A DNA stretch of 64,000 nucleotides from Ascaris suum (Eukaryota > Nematoda > Chromadorea > Rhabditida > Ascarididae): positions 7,192,001 through 7,256,000 of the forward strand of contig CM024181.1 in assembly GCA_013433145.1 (NCBI GenBank), in the 5' to 3' direction. This document shows positions 19,181 through 60,000 of the stretch, in pieces. Made by a program: the position numbers and the translations under genes. Below the pieces are notes generated by a model that searched no databases, was not told the DNA's origin, and saw nothing but the letters and a program-made list of their open reading frames with translations. Position 1 is the stretch's first letter. Each line of letters starts with the position of its first letter.

Positions 19181-21074
19181 ATGTTGATTAAAATGTCGTA
19201 GTGGTACTCACTTGCGCTGCAAGAAACAAACAATTTAAATACTTGAAGCATGGTTCTTGACCTTCTGCTTTGAGATGAATGGTTATTTCTTCGTGTCTCC
19301 TTCAAGTTAGTTCAGGAAATAGTTAAGGTTGTGGATCATTGGCCGCGTGGATTCCTTCATCTTCTTGGGTTACTCTTTTTTCAAAAATATTAGCAATGGT
19401 TGGTTGGATCGTTGGATTTACTATGGTTGTGCCATGTGCATTTGTTCGTAGCGGCTATGCCTACTTTTAGGTTCGCTTGTGGTTACAAATATTGGCTTGT
19501 ATCCGTTTATCACACAAGAAAATACACTTCAAGGATCTTTGGGGCAAGGAAAAAAGTGGGTTGTGAATCGATGTTGCAGCGTTATTTATCTGCTTAACGG
19601 GACTCAAATCAGGATGCAGTATTCGTCAACACTGGAAGGGGTATTCCTCATACTGCAGCGCCGCCGTCTTCGGATAGAAAGGGGGACAAGCGTGAGGGGG
19701 ATCAGCGAATCACCGACAGTTAGAGGATCATTGAATGGCTAAAGGCACTAGAAATGCGATTTGTTCATCCGGTTCCTTGTTTTGCACTTAAACGATTATA
19801 TCTTCGAATGACCATTTTAATGCGCTTGTTTGCTAGACTACGAAAAAAATTCGATTGCAGTGGAAGATTGCATCCTCCATCCCCCCCCTCCCCTCCGCCC
19901 CGTTCCCCTGTCCACCTGTCTCGTCCTGCACCCCCCCTCTCATCCCTACACCTCCTCCCCCGCTCTCCCTATGATGCGATTCTTTGAGACCGAGAATCCA
20001 GTAGAATACCGGTAGGTATGTCGCACCTCTCGATGTCGTTGTCGAACGTTGCGTATTTTACGTCTCCTTATGTTTGCGCCAAGATGGAGTTATACGCTAT
20101 CCCTTAGGGATGATCTCTCCTCTCCCCCCCCCCCCCTCCCTTCGGCGAACTCCGAGTGCTACGGTGTAGTAAGTCCCCCCCCCCCACATTCGCCGTAGTC
20201 TATTTTTGAAATATAAGAGCCGAAGAATTTATAGAATCAAATGGCGTTACAAATCATGAACGATAGTGCTATAAACTGTAAAACATTTTTGAAACCATAA
20301 CACCGAACTCGCCAGCACGTAGGATATTGTGGTTAATTCATAAGAATATAACAGATACTATGTTTAAAGAAAAATGGTTGTGTCGCATTAGCGAGATGAG
20401 CCCAAATACGGCTGCATGATAAAGATCGAGCGAGAAAACGCAGCCAGAACTCCCGTAGGAGCGAAAATAGCCTTGAACATGATCGTGATGACTTGTTTCT
20501 TGTGTTGCGAAGAAATTGGTTTTATGTTTTTTTAAAATTTATTTCGTTTGTCGCAGATTCTCTTCTGATAGTCTCGCTCGTCTTCGTTCATTCCTCGACG
20601 AATTTGACGCGAAGCTAACAACTTTAGACGTCGTGACCTTGATCCTGTACTGCAACGTTTCTGTTATGGGCGCTATATCTCTGCATTTTGTACTCGCTGA
20701 AATCATTCCCAAGACATCGTCATCTTTTACCTGATTTCATATGGCCAAGCTCAGTTCCCCACCATCCCTCCTCTCTCCTCTCCCTGCTGGGCTCGATCTC
20801 GGTTACCTCCTTGCACTCCAGATTGACACATTTGCAGTTTTTTCAGACATGTGCTCCAGTTCAACAGGCAGGCATTGCACGTCATAAATTTCACCTCCGT
20901 TTACTTTACAGCGAAGGATTTCTTTATTTTGTGAGTATCTGTATACTTCCCATTGTCCAGGAGAAAGGAAGTCTGACGCTCACAGTTCCGGCCTTGCCTC
21001 GTCGAATTTTTTGCCATATGTGGCTGAAAAATGGTCTGGTCCCCCTCGCAATGCGGTATTGTGTACTCTTGTAA

Positions 21075-24448
<3,374 letters not shown>

Positions 24449-24514
24449 CCTTCGCCCTAAGAAGAAGCATTACTGAACTCCAGGAAACCTATTTGCCTGA
24501 ATCATTTGCCATGC

Positions 24515-25757
24515 CTATGTGAAGTAATTCCTTTGGCGGTGATAAATTATTGTCATCTTTTTTGGTGATCGCATTCGTTGCAGATGAAATATGTCCTCCG
24601 GGATATGTCCATATGGAGTTGTGAGGTCAGCTAAGGAAACAAACAGGTTGTGTTCAGTTATGAAATCTCTCAGTCGCTGATAAGTTGAATTAAACGGAAT
24701 TACGATATTGCGGTTATCCCATTTATGGAGGCGCTCAAATACCGGCAGTGGACTATGTGTTTTGCGGTTTTCGATGTCAAACGTCCTAGCGCAGAGTTCT
24801 GAACAAAGGAAGTTGTTAAAGGAAACTCAGGCGAAGCTGCAGAAAATTTTGAGTGCTTCGCCGACAATAGCATAAAAGTGCGAGTTATCAAGTTTTGCAA
24901 GGTGATGCAACATCTCGAGGCGGGCACGTTTGAGACGGCAATTACCCACATTGCGGACCTGAAACTATAGGATGAGTGATGGCATCTGTTATAAGCTGTG
25001 TGGAGATATCCTTTGTGCAAGGAGTGCATAACATTTTATTGACTCCTGATTGCTATTTTTTCGCCACATAACATTGGGGGAGTGGGAGGAGGAGTTTAAG
25101 AGGAATCCTGGAAATGGCGGAAATTTTTGAAAGAGCTTTAGTTCCACTCAATTTCTTTCAGGTAACCTTTCCTTGAAGCTCATCTTTTGACCGTTATCGG
25201 TTTTTTTGCGCCCTTCACTAGATCTACAAGTGGTCTCATGAGATTATGCCTCATCATTGATGCCTTCTAGCAGTTTTGTTATCAATAGAAATGGGGGTTT
25301 CACTGCGATCACGGGGTTTTTGCTAAGTGTTTTTTCACTTTTGAAGGGAATCGAACAGCTCAAGTATTTACTGTCCATTGATACTTCGCATCGAGACGTC
25401 AATATGTGGTAATATGGTGGCAAAGTTGGCGGAATAGTGAATATGACTGTTCATGTTTGCCTACTTTTGTGGTTACCTTTAACCATTGCTGCAACCTGGG
25501 CATTGCGACCCGTGCTTACATCTGTTGACAAGTACTTCTCCTGAGGCGGTGAAAGTTAAGTGGGGGGGGGGGGGGTGGGGGTGGGCGGTGACAATTGGCG
25601 GTTCCTTGAAGCGTCTCTGTGAGGTTGTGTTCGAATGCAACACTGAAGGCGCTAGGATGACTTAGCTTTGGCCGAATTCCATTAGAATACCGCCAACGGT
25701 CGAGAAAGGTGTAGCAATGCGCATTTCCAGCCTTCAGAAGCAGATAAGCCAGTGCTC
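24515..25757 (-). pseudogene. Probable decayed protein-coding gene in the palindrome spacer
   Basis: After a TTTCAG acceptor (minus strand, exon right end 24958) a frame reads VRNVGNCRLKRARLEMLHHL to an in-frame TGA at 24827-24829. The same frame then stays open for 103 more codons (for example HKWDNRNIVIPFNSTYQRL) to TAG at 24515-24517. Upstream on the same strand are other open stretches: 25244-25378 (MDSKYLSCSIPFKSEK to TAA) and about 25585-25757 (LLKAGNAHCYTFLDRWRY). The stop codons suggest decay, but missed introns or sequence errors are possible. Its end overlaps the 3' end of the left L40 copy, and it lies 0.5 kb downstream of the right L40 gene on the same strand. The family is not recognised. 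Confidence 0.35.
25562..25584. repeat. Poly-G/GT tract in the spacer
   Basis: G14, T, G5, T and further G runs. On the minus strand it encodes a Pro run following the coding-like stretch above. Confidence 0.85.
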
Positions 25758-26245
25758 AGCTCATAGCGAGGTGCGGTGTCCACGCGTTTTGTTGTTAAAC
25801 AATACCGTCACCTGATTCCTCGGTTGTTTATGCGCTAATCTCTATAGAGCCTAAAAAAGTGGATAGGTATGTTATACCTCAACACGTCTGAGTATTATTT
25901 GAACATAAGATCTAATGTGTTGAAAGCTAGATGGGATCTATGAGCATTAGTGAATCTGAATCTCTTCACAAACATGGCGCTGGGTTCAGATCATGCCTAG
26001 GTATTCAAGAGTTGGGACCACTCCGGCCCCTAGTGTATTGATGCTTCGGTTTGGACCCAATCTCGCTTATGGATGAGATAACGTCAGTCGCCTGACGGAG
26101 GCACGAGTGATTTCGACCTCTCCTCATCGTCACCGTGGATGCGAAATAATATAAAATAACACGACAACAGTTTATCATCATCAAAGAGATTACTTCAAAG
26201 ACAGACATGGCAAATGATGCAGACAAACACGACGTTTCCTGAAGT

Positions 26246-29612
<3,367 letters not shown>

Positions 29613-31645
29613 TTACAAGAGTACACAATACCGCATTGCGAGGGGGACCAGACCATTTTTCAGCCACATATGGCAAAAAATTCGACGAGGCAAGGCCGGA
29701 ACTGTGAGCGTCAGACTTCCTTTCTCCTGGACAATGGGAAGTATACAGATACTCACAAAATAAAGAAATCCTTCGCTGTAAAGTAAACGGAGGTGAAATT
29801 TATGACGTGCAATGCCTGCCTGTTGAACTGGAGCACATGTCTGAAAAAATGCAAACGTGTCAATCTGGAGTGCAAGGAGGTAACCGAGATCGAGCCCAGC
29901 AGGGAGAGGAGAGAGGAGGGATGGTGGGGAACTGAGCTTGGCCATATGAAATCAGGTAAAGGACGACGATGTCTTGGGAATGATTTCAGCGAGTACAAAA
30001 TGCAGAGATATAGCGCCCATAACAGAAACGTTGCAGTACAGGATCAAGGTCACGACGTCTAAAGTTGTTAGCTTCGCGTCAAATTCGTCGAGGAATGAAC
30101 GAAGGCGAGCGAGACTATCAGAAGAGAATCTGCGACAAACGAAATAAATTTTAAAAAAACATAAAACCAAATTTCTTCGCAACACAAGAAACAAGTCATC
30201 ACAATCATGTTCAAGGCTATTTTCGCTCCTACGGGAGTTCTGGCTGCGTTTTCTCGCTCGATCTTTATCATGCAGCCGTATTTGGGCTCATCTCGCTAAT
30301 GCGACACAACCATTTTTCTTTAAACATAGTATCTGTTATATTCTTATGAATTAACCACAATATCCTACGTGCTGGCGAGTTCTTTGTTATGGTTTCAGAA
30401 AATGTTTTACAGTTTATAGCACTATCGTTCATGATTTGTAACGCCATTTGATTCTATGAATTCTTCGGCTCTTATATTTCAAAAATAGACTACGGCGAAT
30501 GTGGAGGGGGGGACTTACTACACCGTAGCACTCGGAGCTCGCCGAAGGGGGGGGGGGGGAGGGGGAGAGGAGAGATCATCCCTAAGGGATAGCGTATAAC
30601 TCCATCTTGGCGCAAACATAAGGAGACGTAAAATACGCAACGTTCAACAACGACATCGAGAGGTGCGACATACCTACCGGTATTCTACTGGATTCTCCGG
30701 TCTCAAAGAATCGCATCATAGGGAGAGCGGGGGAGGAGGTGTAGGGATGAGGGGGGGTGCAGGACGAGACAGGTGGACGGGGGAACGGGGCGGAGGGGAG
30801 GGGGGGGGATGGAGGATGCAATCTTCCACTGCAATCGAATTTTTTTCGTAGTCTAGCAAACAAGCGTATTAAAAATGGTCATTCGAAGATATAATGGTTT
30901 AAGTGCAAAACAAGGAACCGGAATGTGTGAGCTAGACATTTCACAAATGAACAAATCGCATTTCTAATGCCTTTAGCCATTCATTGATCCTCTATCTGTC
31001 GGTGATTCGCTGATCCCCCTCACGCTTGTCCCCCTTTCTATCCGAAGACGGCGGCGCTGCAGTATGAGGAATACCCCTTCCAGTATTGACGAATACTGCA
31101 TCCTGATTTGAGTCCCGTTAAGCAGATAAATAACGCTGCAACATCGATTCACAACCCATTTTTTTCCTTGCTCCAAAGATCCTTGAAGTGTATTTTCTTG
31201 TGCGGTAAACGGATACAAGCCAATATTTGTAACCACAAGCGAACCTAAAAGTAGGCATAGCCGCTACGAACAAATGCACATGGCACAATCATAGTAAATC
31301 CAACGATCCAACCAACCATTGCTAATATTTTTGAAAAAAGAGTAACCCAAGAAGCTGAAGGAATCCACGCGGCCAATGATCCACAACCTTAACTAGTTCC
31401 TGAACTAACCTGAAGGAGACACGAAGCGACAACCACCCACCTAGAATCAGAAAAAAATTCAACAAAACACAACACCTCATTTGCAACGAACCCTCCTAAC
31501 CTCAGGAGCCATCCCAAAGATGCAACGCACGTCGGCACTTGACCTACAACGTTAACTTCCGTTAATGGAGAGGTCTTTGTCGATTACGATCAATTCCTTT
31601 CAAGAGCCTATGAGGTCAGGCATTTAAATTGTTTGTTTATTGCAG

Positions 31646-33636
31646 CACAAATATATGCAGCTGTGATGTTTTCATTAACATTTTTTTTTCTAATTAGTAA
31701 CGTGTTTAATCAAAAATATTGGAAACGAAATTATTTGCCGTATTTGCTAGCTATAGAATCTGGATCCTATAGCGCTTTCAACTTCCCAGAAAAGGAGACG
31801 TATATTCCCGGGAAAGTGAGAATTTAGAATCGATGTATTAGATAAATATCGCTGAAGATGCATAATGATATTTATTTGCGATACGAAATTACTCGGGAAA
31901 AGATAAATACGATGGAATATATTTGTTTACCTATCACCTAAAAAACTATCACCTTTGAAGTGATCAAAGATTATTCTAAGAGAGCGAAAAAATGTTTTCA
32001 ATTCGATGATATTTTTATGCTCATGTTAGGATTTATTAATTCTTGAATTATTAACACTTGTTCGAGCGGTTTTCTATATTTCATTATCGGCTATCACTGT
32101 TTCAAGCGATTCGATTCTATCACTGATACTAACGCGCTAATAGATTTTATTTTATCATTGAGAGCTAGAAAAAAATAGCGAAAGGAAAAGAAGATTAAAA
32201 ATAGCGAAAATAAAGGTAGTAAAAGTAACTAAAAGTTAACAAGGTAAAATAAGGTAAATAATTAGTATATATATGCAAATTTTTTATTAATAATTACTAC
32301 TTGAATGAGCAATAGTTATCGTGATTCGGCAGTGGTAGGTTCTGACCGACGTGTAAAATCTATTGATGCTTATATAGTTATGAAAAATTCCACACAGCTG
32401 AGTACTCGTAAATGTTATCCATCAACTACCGCAAGTCGAAGGAAAAAATCGAAAAACCGGATTGACGGTTAAATACTCCTCAGCAATAGGCAATTCGAAG
32501 TTTTATGGATTGCATGATGGCCGCATGATTGTGGATTCTTGCATTCAACACTATCAACAATTTTACCTCACGTAATTCCTTGAGTCGTATTTATCCAACA
32601 CTAGAAATTCACCTCAGCTTAAAGGTTACCGTAGTTAAAACGATTTAATATTCCACGTAAATACCATATCGACTAGTTGAAGTAGTTAGCTTTATTCAGA
32701 GATTGTTTGAGTGGATATATATCGTTATGAATGCTCGACTTTGCTCATATAATGGAACGATGTTGAAAGAATTTGATTGTATAATATCAATTGTATTTGA
32801 GTTCTAATAAAGTGCTGCAAAAATATATATATAAACGATTAATTAAAAATAAAAGCGATTCACTTTCGTTAGAAAATATGCGTTTAATTTAAAGAAATTT
32901 TAATTATGTTTAATATTTGATATTTAATAAGTGAAGACATTATGCAAATTATATGCAATATTCTTTTATTAGGCATTTGATTATGAACGCTTTAAAATGC
33001 AACGATTTCCGATGCGTTCAAAGCGTTTTTTGATTAATGAAATATATCTCTAGCGTTATTATTGTGTACGATTGAATTTCTTTATATCGGAAATAATCTC
33101 GATTAATTGATTTTTTAATTTCTATCAAAACGATTTAATTAATAATTTTTAAATTCATTAACACTAAAAAAACGGACTTTATTAGGTGATAATAGATCAA
33201 ATGATACGATAATATGGCAAAAATAGTAGGGAAATTCATAATGAAAGCGATACGTTTTTGAATGATTCTCATCGTTAGAGATCGATAAAATGTTTGTTTT
33301 ATGTGAGCGCATATTAGATCCTTTAATTTCAATTATATATTATTAATGCAGAATTTTAGAAATTCTCAATTTCCATACTAAATACTTTCTTTTTTTAATG
33401 TTCATTTGTAGTTTATTTATAAATATGAAACAAAGTATGCTTAATCTCGAAAAATTTCATTACCTTGCATATATTTTGCTTTGTTTCACTTCTGCGACAG
33501 GATAGTTTATAAAAAGCTAATTGACACGATTAATGAGGAATCTGCGACAGGATATGAAAAGACAGGAGAGAGTAAACCCTCAGATGTCGGAATGCGCGAG
33601 AAATATTTTTCGACGGTATCAGATATTGAGCAGAAG
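31646..33636 (+). CDS. Unrecognised protein, at least four exons, one hydrophobic segment (partial model)
   Basis: Exon 31646-31815 follows TTATTGCAG, starts in phase 1 and ends at GTGAGA. It contains the hydrophobic stretch AAVMFSLTFFFLISNVF followed by a basic region, as in a single membrane span. Exon ?-32407 (open from an ATG at 32305, VKSIDAYIVMKNSTQLST) ends in phase 1 at GTAAAT. Exon 32484-32571 (IGNSKFYGLHDGRMIVD) ends in phase 2 at GTAATT. Exon 33501-33636 (IVYKKLIDTINEESATG to DIEQK) ends in phase 0 at GTAAAA. The last three join in frame. The link from 31815 (phase 0) to the exon ending at 32407 is not solved, so an exon is missing or two genes are involved. A decayed copy of the first exon lies in the left arm. 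Function unknown. Confidence 0.5.
31905..32300. repeat. Outer block of the inverted duplication, right side
   Basis: Inverted match to 15100-15520. Here it is directly adjacent to the 31.63-31.90 kb block, whereas on the left the two blocks are 3.3 kb apart. Confidence 0.75.
33491..33554. repeat. Duplicated 14-mer TCTGCGACAGGATA at a splice acceptor
   Basis: Copies lie at 33491-33504 and 33541-33554. The first provides the GCGACAG acceptor of the exon starting 33501. Use of the second would give an early stop in the modelled phase. Confidence 0.85.
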
Positions 33637-54313: not shown

Positions 54314-54754
54314 TGCCTTTTCAATGATAATCAAACATCGCCTGATGGAAATTTCCATTACGTTCAGTTACATTCTCTATTGTCCTATGAAACGTTAACG
54401 TCTCCGGTAGATTTACATGTATCTACCAATCTTTAAAAATATTTCCATAGTTATTATTTCTAAAAATATGCATCATTTCCATAAGAGTGACCACTACCAC
54501 AACTGCAATGCTTTATGCCTGTTCACTTTTTTGCAAAGCAGTTGCATTTTGCAAGGAATTGTGCAATGAGTGGTATTGGAAGATTGCAATTGCCAATATA
54601 TGAAATCGAGAGATTTGTGCAAAGCAGAGCAGGACACCTAAAGGATAACAGTTATTCTATGGGGTTTTGTACATAGTAAGGGAGAGAGGAGGAAGGGGAC
54701 GAGAGAGATGTCGTGATGCTTGGCGGAGTCTCAGTAGTTATTTGCTCAGCTGCA

Positions 54755-54859
54755 TTATAGTATATAGTAAATTCGATTGTTGTTGTTATGAACGTCGGAA
54801 TGTGACGAATCAGACAATGATGTTTCTGTTAAGGTTTCATCTCTTTGAGCTTTAATCAT
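54755..54859 (-). CDS. Short ORF headed by a genomic SL1 sequence
   Basis: On the minus strand the SL1 copy (54890-54869) is followed by GTTTTTGCT and then ATG at 54859-54857. The ORF runs 34 codons (MIKAQRDETLTETSLSDSSH, an Asn run, stop 54755-54757). The layout is that of an SL1 trans-spliced mRNA, with leader plus a short 5' UTR before the start codon. No poly(A) tail or intron-exon proof is visible, and the product is unknown. It may be the 5' part of a retroposed or decayed transcript. Confidence 0.4.
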   Translation of the reverse strand: MIKAQRDETLTETSLSDSSHSDVHNNNNRIYYIL

Positions 54860-54868
54860 AGCAAAAAC

Positions 54869-54890
54869 CTCAAACTTGGGTAATTAAACC
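54869..54890 (-). other. Perfect 22-nt spliced leader SL1 sequence
   Basis: The reverse complement begins GGTTTAATTACCC and ends AAGTTTGAG, matching all 22 bases of nematode SL1. The next bases are GTTTTTGCTATG. No Sm-binding site (AATTTTTGG type) or SL RNA stem-loops follow, so this is not a normal SL RNA gene. Confidence 0.85.
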
Positions 54891-54928
54891 TTCGAATGGA
54901 GAGAATATTTACTCAAATGAAGTTGTAG

Positions 54929-55777
54929 AATTAAAAATGCTGTTAAAGTAATCAACTTTGCATCATTGTTCGATATCGTTAAAGAAGTGTTGTCATCGAT
55001 ACAGGCGTGTTCTCAGTTAGGTCTATATTTTCACCAACATCAAGATGATACAGGTATAGGGTGTGATCAACTCTAATCAATAAGATTGCGAAAGAGTGGC
55101 TGCAAACATAAATGGCATTAAAAAAAAGTCCATCAAACACAATACTGCTTTCGAATCATATAAACCTATTATTGCAACGATTCGTCATTGTTGGATGGTT
55201 TAGGTGAGTGGCATTGTGTTACTGCCAGTCTTCAATCGTGTTATTGCTGTTTTGCGAAATTCATTCGTTCGATCCGATTGTAAACAATTTGTTCTTGTTA
55301 GATGGTATGCTTTTATCTACATTCGGATAAGATCCTGAAATATGCCAAATTTGCTCGTCAGTCCGGTGTTCGGGACCATTATGCCGGTTCTAGTTAACGG
55401 AGGAGGTGGGGGAAGGTGGGGGGGGGGGGGGTGGGGTAAAGGAGAAGAAGTATGATTGGAAAGGAATTTAAAAAATTTTAGGGCGAAACAAGCGAGATAA
55501 TAGTTTAAATGAGGCAGTAAAAACTTTTCTCTTTTGATTCTATTATTTGCCTATGATATTTTCTATCAAGGTGAGGATATTCTTCACATTTTCTTTCTGT
55601 GCATCGAAACTTCAGATGATTATGACAGCTATGATGTTTGCTTGAAATCAGCTTTATCTCTGCGGAGATAAAGCTGCAAATTTTAGTTAACTCAATATCT
55701 GACGTTGTTGGTGCTCAAAGTATTAGCCTGCCTGATATTTGTTATAAGATAAATTCAATATCGTATTTTCATATTAA

Positions 55778-59740: not shown

Positions 59741-60000
59741 ATATCGTCAATCCTATCCTCTCTATCCGAATATCGATATAGTCATATCGTCAATCCTATC
59801 CTCTCTATCCGAATATCGTCAATCCTATCCTCTCTATCCGAATATCGTCAATCCTATCCTCTCTATCCGAATATCGTCAATCCTATCCTCTCTATCCGAA
59901 TATCGTCAATCCTATCCTCTCTATCCGAATATCGAATATCGTCAATCCTATCCTCTCTATCCGAATATCGATCCTCGAATATCGTCAATCTATCCTCTCA
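59741..60000. repeat. Minisatellite, 29-bp unit, about eight copies
   Basis: The unit is TCGTCAATCC followed by TATCCTCTCTATCCGAATA. The inner copies are identical; the outer copies carry short insertions (CGATATAGTCATA, CGAATA, CGATCC). The 29-bp unit is open in all three plus frames, producing a 156-codon ORF (59621-60091) that cycles through SILSSLSEYR, IVNPILSIR and SYPLYPN. Confidence 0.9.

Follow-up and report, generated by a model that had tools for sequence, protein, structure and literature searches.

The 22 nt SL1 leader has been described outside SL RNA genes in another nematode, Brugia malayi. A total of 316 SL1 matches were found there, of which 120 were termed 'integral' and 60 of these lie within 1 kb of Pao elements; the authors conclude that leaders had joined expressed Pao elements and were integrated with them (PMC7181701). 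In Caenorhabditis elegans, the LTR element Cer1 is reported to carry SL1 on a spliced mRNA (PMC3315495). The Mutator/Foldback element Tm1 of Meloidogyne is described as a nematode foldback with composite inverted repeats, and its transposase-bearing member has a predicted SL1 acceptor, UUUUCAG (PMC3169594).

The Ascaris suum locus analysed here shares features with each of these. Like the integral copies of B. malayi, it is a 22 nt SL1 outside SL RNA genes that can be explained through leader-bearing transcripts; unlike those, it is attached to a non-coding repeat outside the Pao LTR families, and SL1-less relatives of this repeat have a splice acceptor at the junction (PMC7181701). The repeat family, defined in this analysis and termed F, resembles Tm1 in that some copies are foldbacks, but the likeness is one of description, and genomic SL1 goes unmentioned in the accessible parts of the Tm1 report (PMC3169594). 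Within the A. suum genome itself, three SL1-bearing LTR families (A, B and C) also contain an exact, dispersed SL1; in these, however, SL1 lies inside the LTR and no acceptor form occurs among the copies read, whereas the SL1 studied here lies at the 5′ edge of its repeat. The open-licence literature searched, which leaves out most subscription papers, yielded no account of a non-coding foldback family carrying SL1, nor of SL1 as a fixed component of Pao LTRs in Ascaris. Genomic SL1 as a class is already described; what appears to be new is the acceptor-matched non-coding family.

The window, i.e. the whole stretch of DNA analysed, comprises 64 kb of contig C19 (G000:C19:7192001–7256000), and the SL1 copy within it is locus L031. 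A sequence-only reading of this DNA had reported a full-length, mismatch-free SL1, and the leader is indeed present at 22/22 nt at 54869–54890 on the minus strand, the sole match in the window at up to three mismatches. Chance origin, which that reading considered very unlikely, was not reproduced in any of 100 dinucleotide shuffles. Homology among relatives starts at this SL1, and the repeat copy is bounded by it on the 5′ side. The two bases directly following it are GT, as in SL RNA genes, and 9 nt (GTTTTTGCT) separate it from an ATG at 54859 on the minus strand, as had been described. The non-coding F repeat body occupies 54742–54868 (minus strand), as delimited by DNA search, BLAST of copies and alignment with L032, and the same comparisons suggest a possible extension of homology to approximately 54706. 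An ORF of 34 aa (54755–54859, minus strand) lies within the body. The upstream flank (54891–55090, minus strand) is unrelated to the repeat arm: its best alignment score, 38, is below the mean of shuffled sequences (41.7) and is reached by 162 of 200 shuffles. By eye the window copy seemed to have a possible palindromic left arm, but the same test does not support one. Elsewhere in the window, G+C content is 42–45 % at 20001–32000 compared with 26–37 % in the remainder (2 kb steps), with a piece of a ubiquitin-L40e gene inside this block (27116–27493, minus strand), and a tandem array of about six copies of a 29-base unit is found at 59784–59970.

A genome search with the 401 bases around the site returned the site itself and ten other places. 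In all ten non-self matches homology starts at query position 103–112, SL1 starting at 111; the relative at C2:20854352, for instance, matches at 76 % over query positions 109–259. A second search, with 113 bases of a relative including SL1, gave 41 matches, many of them beginning downstream of SL1, and 20 of these regions were fetched. In F copies that lack SL1 an upstream segment, the outron, ends in '...gatgattttcag' or a near form exactly at the SL1 joining point; the outron thus ends at or near TTTTCAG and homology continues downstream from the junction base. Searching with the outron segment plus body gave 42 matches, from which 20 more regions were fetched. An alignment anchored at the junction was made of 50 F copies, of which 20 carry SL1, in some cases degenerate, and 30 carry the outron; it omits copies whose junction is unclear and near-duplicates of others (L072, L083, L091, L132, L133 and L139, for example), although two pairs of near-copies were retained. 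Of the 30 outron copies, 18 preserve the junction AG, and the remaining 12 have slightly altered versions of the motif (CAA, CAC or CGG, for example). In two copies, L013 and L087, an outron is followed by about 19 nt of body, after which come SL1 and the body again. The window copy matches the F body from immediately after the junction, and is an old, decayed, non-coding copy of this dispersed repeat rather than a gene. The single, unique event envisaged in the sequence-only reading is accordingly replaced by membership of a family.

On a tree of the F copies the SL1 state requires 15 changes; the mean after shuffling is 15.8 and 217 of 500 shuffles are as low, so that the state is unclustered. 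This tree is poorly resolved, with 4 of 47 inner branches well supported, and since the well-supported branches force at most one change of state, many independent SL1 additions are unproved. The window copy groups with L032, L037 and L038 (support 96/94) in a subclade consisting of SL1 forms. No SL1-less parent was found within these four copies, and so the acceptor match is drawn from the wider F family. Selection on SL1 was considered, given end branches of 0.28–0.49 against 0–2 SL1 mismatches in the window subclade, but the claim was dropped because the subclade copies came from SL1-containing queries, and SL1-form copies matched through the body with an SL1-free query (L034, L142, L147 and L078) have 0, 4, 4 and 4 mismatches of 22. 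This count leaves out L087, which has an exact SL1 and was matched by the SL1-free query through its outron, and two further matches of that query on C8 and C9. Searching for outer ends common to F copies gave a motif present in some copies and absent from the window copy, and did not establish the element termini. By eye, one F hairpin seemed to resemble a hammerhead ribozyme, an idea that was dropped.

Several origins that would make the site something other than a repeat copy can be weighed against these data. A retrogene, or the cis-encoded leader of a true protein-coding gene, is what the arrangement of SL1, 9 nt, ATG and a 34 aa ORF would suggest at face value. Of 50 F copies, 48 have an ATG within 20 bases of the start of the body, yet the frame it opens varies in length between 2 and at least 45 codons (measured from the first ATG of each copy, not always the homologous one). 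The 34 aa ORF is not conserved among these copies, so a coding role was rejected, no gene is supported, and the ORF is probably incidental. The intron-containing parent gene anticipated from the letters did not appear either, as the 11 matches to the 401-base query, self and ten F copies, include no coding parent. A coding origin, and with it the cis-encoded leader that had been offered as an option, is thus highly improbable. Even less credit can be given to a degenerate SL RNA gene or to cDNA contamination joined during assembly. An exact SL1 followed by GT is what an SL RNA gene would have, but the Rfam SL1 model (RF00198) scores 15.4 bits at the site against a gathering score of 75, in agreement with the earlier remark that SL RNA structures are missing, and no Rfam family reaches its gathering score anywhere in the window. 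Both of the two array units tested from the same genome score above the threshold (76.2 and 76.3 bits) and are located next to 5S rRNA; with real SL RNA genes sitting in 5S arrays, an SL RNA gene variant is ruled out. Contamination, which had been raised as an objection to the junction, fails because the same junction recurs in ten dispersed and diverged relatives.

The joining of SL1 exactly at the outron acceptor is a signature of trans-splicing, and because the junction coincides with the acceptor, an RNA step, trans-splicing of F, is strongly suggested by these comparisons. In the proposed sequence of events, F transcripts would have carried a nematode 3′ splice acceptor (TTTTCAG), the spliceosome would have exchanged the upstream outron for SL1, and the SL1-led RNA would have been reverse transcribed and returned to the genome, the window copy keeping one such 5′ end with SL1 foremost. 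This course of events we consider likely. A 5′ end at SL1 nucleotide 1, with the acceptor in the parent form, is found at the level of the F family, and SL1 nucleotide 1 beside an unrelated flank is as expected of a trans-spliced RNA copied back into DNA. For the copying into DNA and the insertion of the window copy itself we go no further than to infer them, since neither a target-site duplication nor an A tract was found. A shared flank word as long as that at the window copy occurs in 104 of 500 shuffles; the corresponding counts for the other free-ended copies are 438 (L032), 152 (L034), 500 (L037), 31 (L038) and 500 (L041). Likewise, the window copy has no A run, and a run of at least seven A 100–260 bases from SL1 is present in none of the six free-ended copies. 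The idea of a reverse-transcribed, trans-spliced mRNA therefore holds in part: SL1 most likely arrived on a trans-spliced RNA, as indicated by the acceptor at the joining point in SL1-less relatives and by the unrelated left flank, and a unique event, a coding gene and an intron-containing parent are unsupported.

Spread of SL1 as DNA is the main competing account, in which a transposase mobilised an SL1-bearing foldback, and the window copy represents half of such an element, its left arm having been lost. A foldback structure with inverted arms is seen in several F copies (L092, L129, L134, L036 and L039, for example), and 6 of the 13 SL1-form copies tested (L019, L033, L035, L036, L039 and L040) retain the left inverted arm, whole or in part, at scores reached by 0 of 200 shuffles. 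That the window subclade is made up of SL1 forms alone is also what such spread would give. However, it leaves the exchange of the outron for SL1 exactly at the acceptor unexplained, and arm homology is missing from the left flank of the window copy, which, with six others of the 13, has no detectable left arm and so lacks the long inverted arms of a foldback. We consider spread by DNA alone unlikely as the source of the SL1. Left arms in 6 of the 13 copies do imply that DNA rearrangement or transposition also shaped F, and trans-splicing followed by reverse transcription may have been accompanied, in copies with a left arm, by DNA-level rearrangement or hairpin cDNA synthesis.

The sequence-only reading had held SL RNA genes to be the sole place where SL1 is encoded, and had considered that a genomic copy such as this would be unusual in a nematode. 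Both statements are wrong for this genome, a 277.8 Mb assembly of 97 contigs in which an exact-match search found 251 copies of SL1 (170 forward, 81 reverse) and none of the reversed control; the second is also at odds with the B. malayi data (PMC7181701). The exact copies are followed by GT and A/C/T in 119 cases, GTGT in 59, A/C/T in 38, GTG and A/C/G in 28, and G and A/C/G in 7 (five dispersed on C4, C5, C9 and C13, two unplaced). Two SL RNA/5S arrays are both located on the contig of the window, C19. Among the 100 places listed of the 119 with GT and A/C/T, at least 28 fall in the array at 1.430–1.458 Mb and at least 61 in that at 5.856–5.921 Mb, which also takes one of the 38 A/C/T copies and switches strand at about 5.8805 Mb. 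The other 19 places of this class, the window copy among them, are unlisted. Array copies, spaced mostly at about 1.03–1.05 kb, thus number at least 90, and 141–161 of the 251 exact copies lie outside the arrays.

Flanks were compared for a set of 71 loci (L001–L071), reduced to 58 by removing 13 with identical 100-base context, which were partly one place fetched twice and partly other places. The set is non-random, being made up of the first 30 of the 251 copies, the window copy, the copies related to it, and 30 of the 38 A/C/T places. By homology spanning SL1, 17 loci belong to family A, 15 to C, 13 to F (a count that includes the window copy and ten relatives from its own search), 5 to B and 2 to D; two are junction cases (L023 and L062) and four have no kin. 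The latter (L005, L050, L051 and L061) have an exact SL1 and match no family in hand, and are possibly single retrocopies or other elements. The window copy groups with F and not with A–D, its SL1 is not flanked on both sides by LTR, and its DNA search returned F-like places alone.

In families A, B and C, SL1 lies within the LTR and has conserved flanks on both sides. Stretches between SL1-bearing LTRs encode DUF1758, Peptidase_A17 (the Pao peptidase) and RVT_1 on C4 (family B context), the same three on C7 (family A context), RVT_1 there being below the curated cut-off, and DUF1758 on C14 (family C), with Peptidase_A17 absent within the part read. Families A and B are Pao retrotransposons, and family C is probably Pao as well. 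The LTRs of the C4 element (L152, G000:C4:6726700–6729000; L153, 6733250–6735550) do not differ at any of 1123 aligned bases. Each contains an exact SL1 at aligned position 411, and a 5-base duplication, GATGC, was read by eye at the ends of the element, which is very young. LTR identity in the C14 element is 99.66 %. Among the first 100 listed places, all ten pairs of SL1 neighbours less than 12 kb apart are on the same strand, at spacings of 4.0–10.4 kb, seven of which are 6.5 or 7.3 kb. Additionally, 81 matches downstream of SL1 were listed (A 41, C 40), and 33 (A 16, C 17) were fetched, picked mainly for having no exact SL1 listed there. One of these has an exact SL1; in the other 32 the SL1 at this position is degenerate or lacks some of its bases, and is preceded by sequence typical of the family. 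The pattern indicates that SL1 is a fixed part of the LTR, decaying in old copies.

Families A and B are identical across SL1 (22/22) and align poorly elsewhere. Locus L023 (G000:C3:119018–122039) matches family A upstream of SL1 (84/95, 93/98, 48/48 and 46/48) and family B downstream (49/50, 49/50, 98/100 and 97/97), and looks like an LTR mosaic of the two joined at SL1. Locus L062 (G000:C13:3506100–3509122) is family A from SL1 nucleotide 1 onward, and its upstream flank matches no locus in hand. A broader and tentative suggestion, which we hold to be possible though not probable, is that the SL1 22-mer is a portable DNA module of mobile elements, present at F splice acceptors and fixed at one place in several Pao-type LTR families whose flanks otherwise differ; in these LTRs it may define the 5′ end of the RNA, acting as promoter and leader, and may serve as homology for switching between families during reverse transcription. 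In Ascaris, the 22 nt SL of the SL RNA gene is reportedly an internal promoter element, which makes the arrangement in the LTRs of interest.

If genomic SL1 marks RNAs that were trans-spliced and then copied into DNA, these copies would constitute a record of the trans-splicing of non-coding and mobile RNAs that can be read from the genome sequence itself. Given that SL1 is fixed in young Pao LTRs, a further question is whether retrotransposons encode the host leader and so obtain host-like transcription and translation without trans-splicing. As a practical warning, reads trapped by SL1 in A. suum may derive from genome-encoded SL1.
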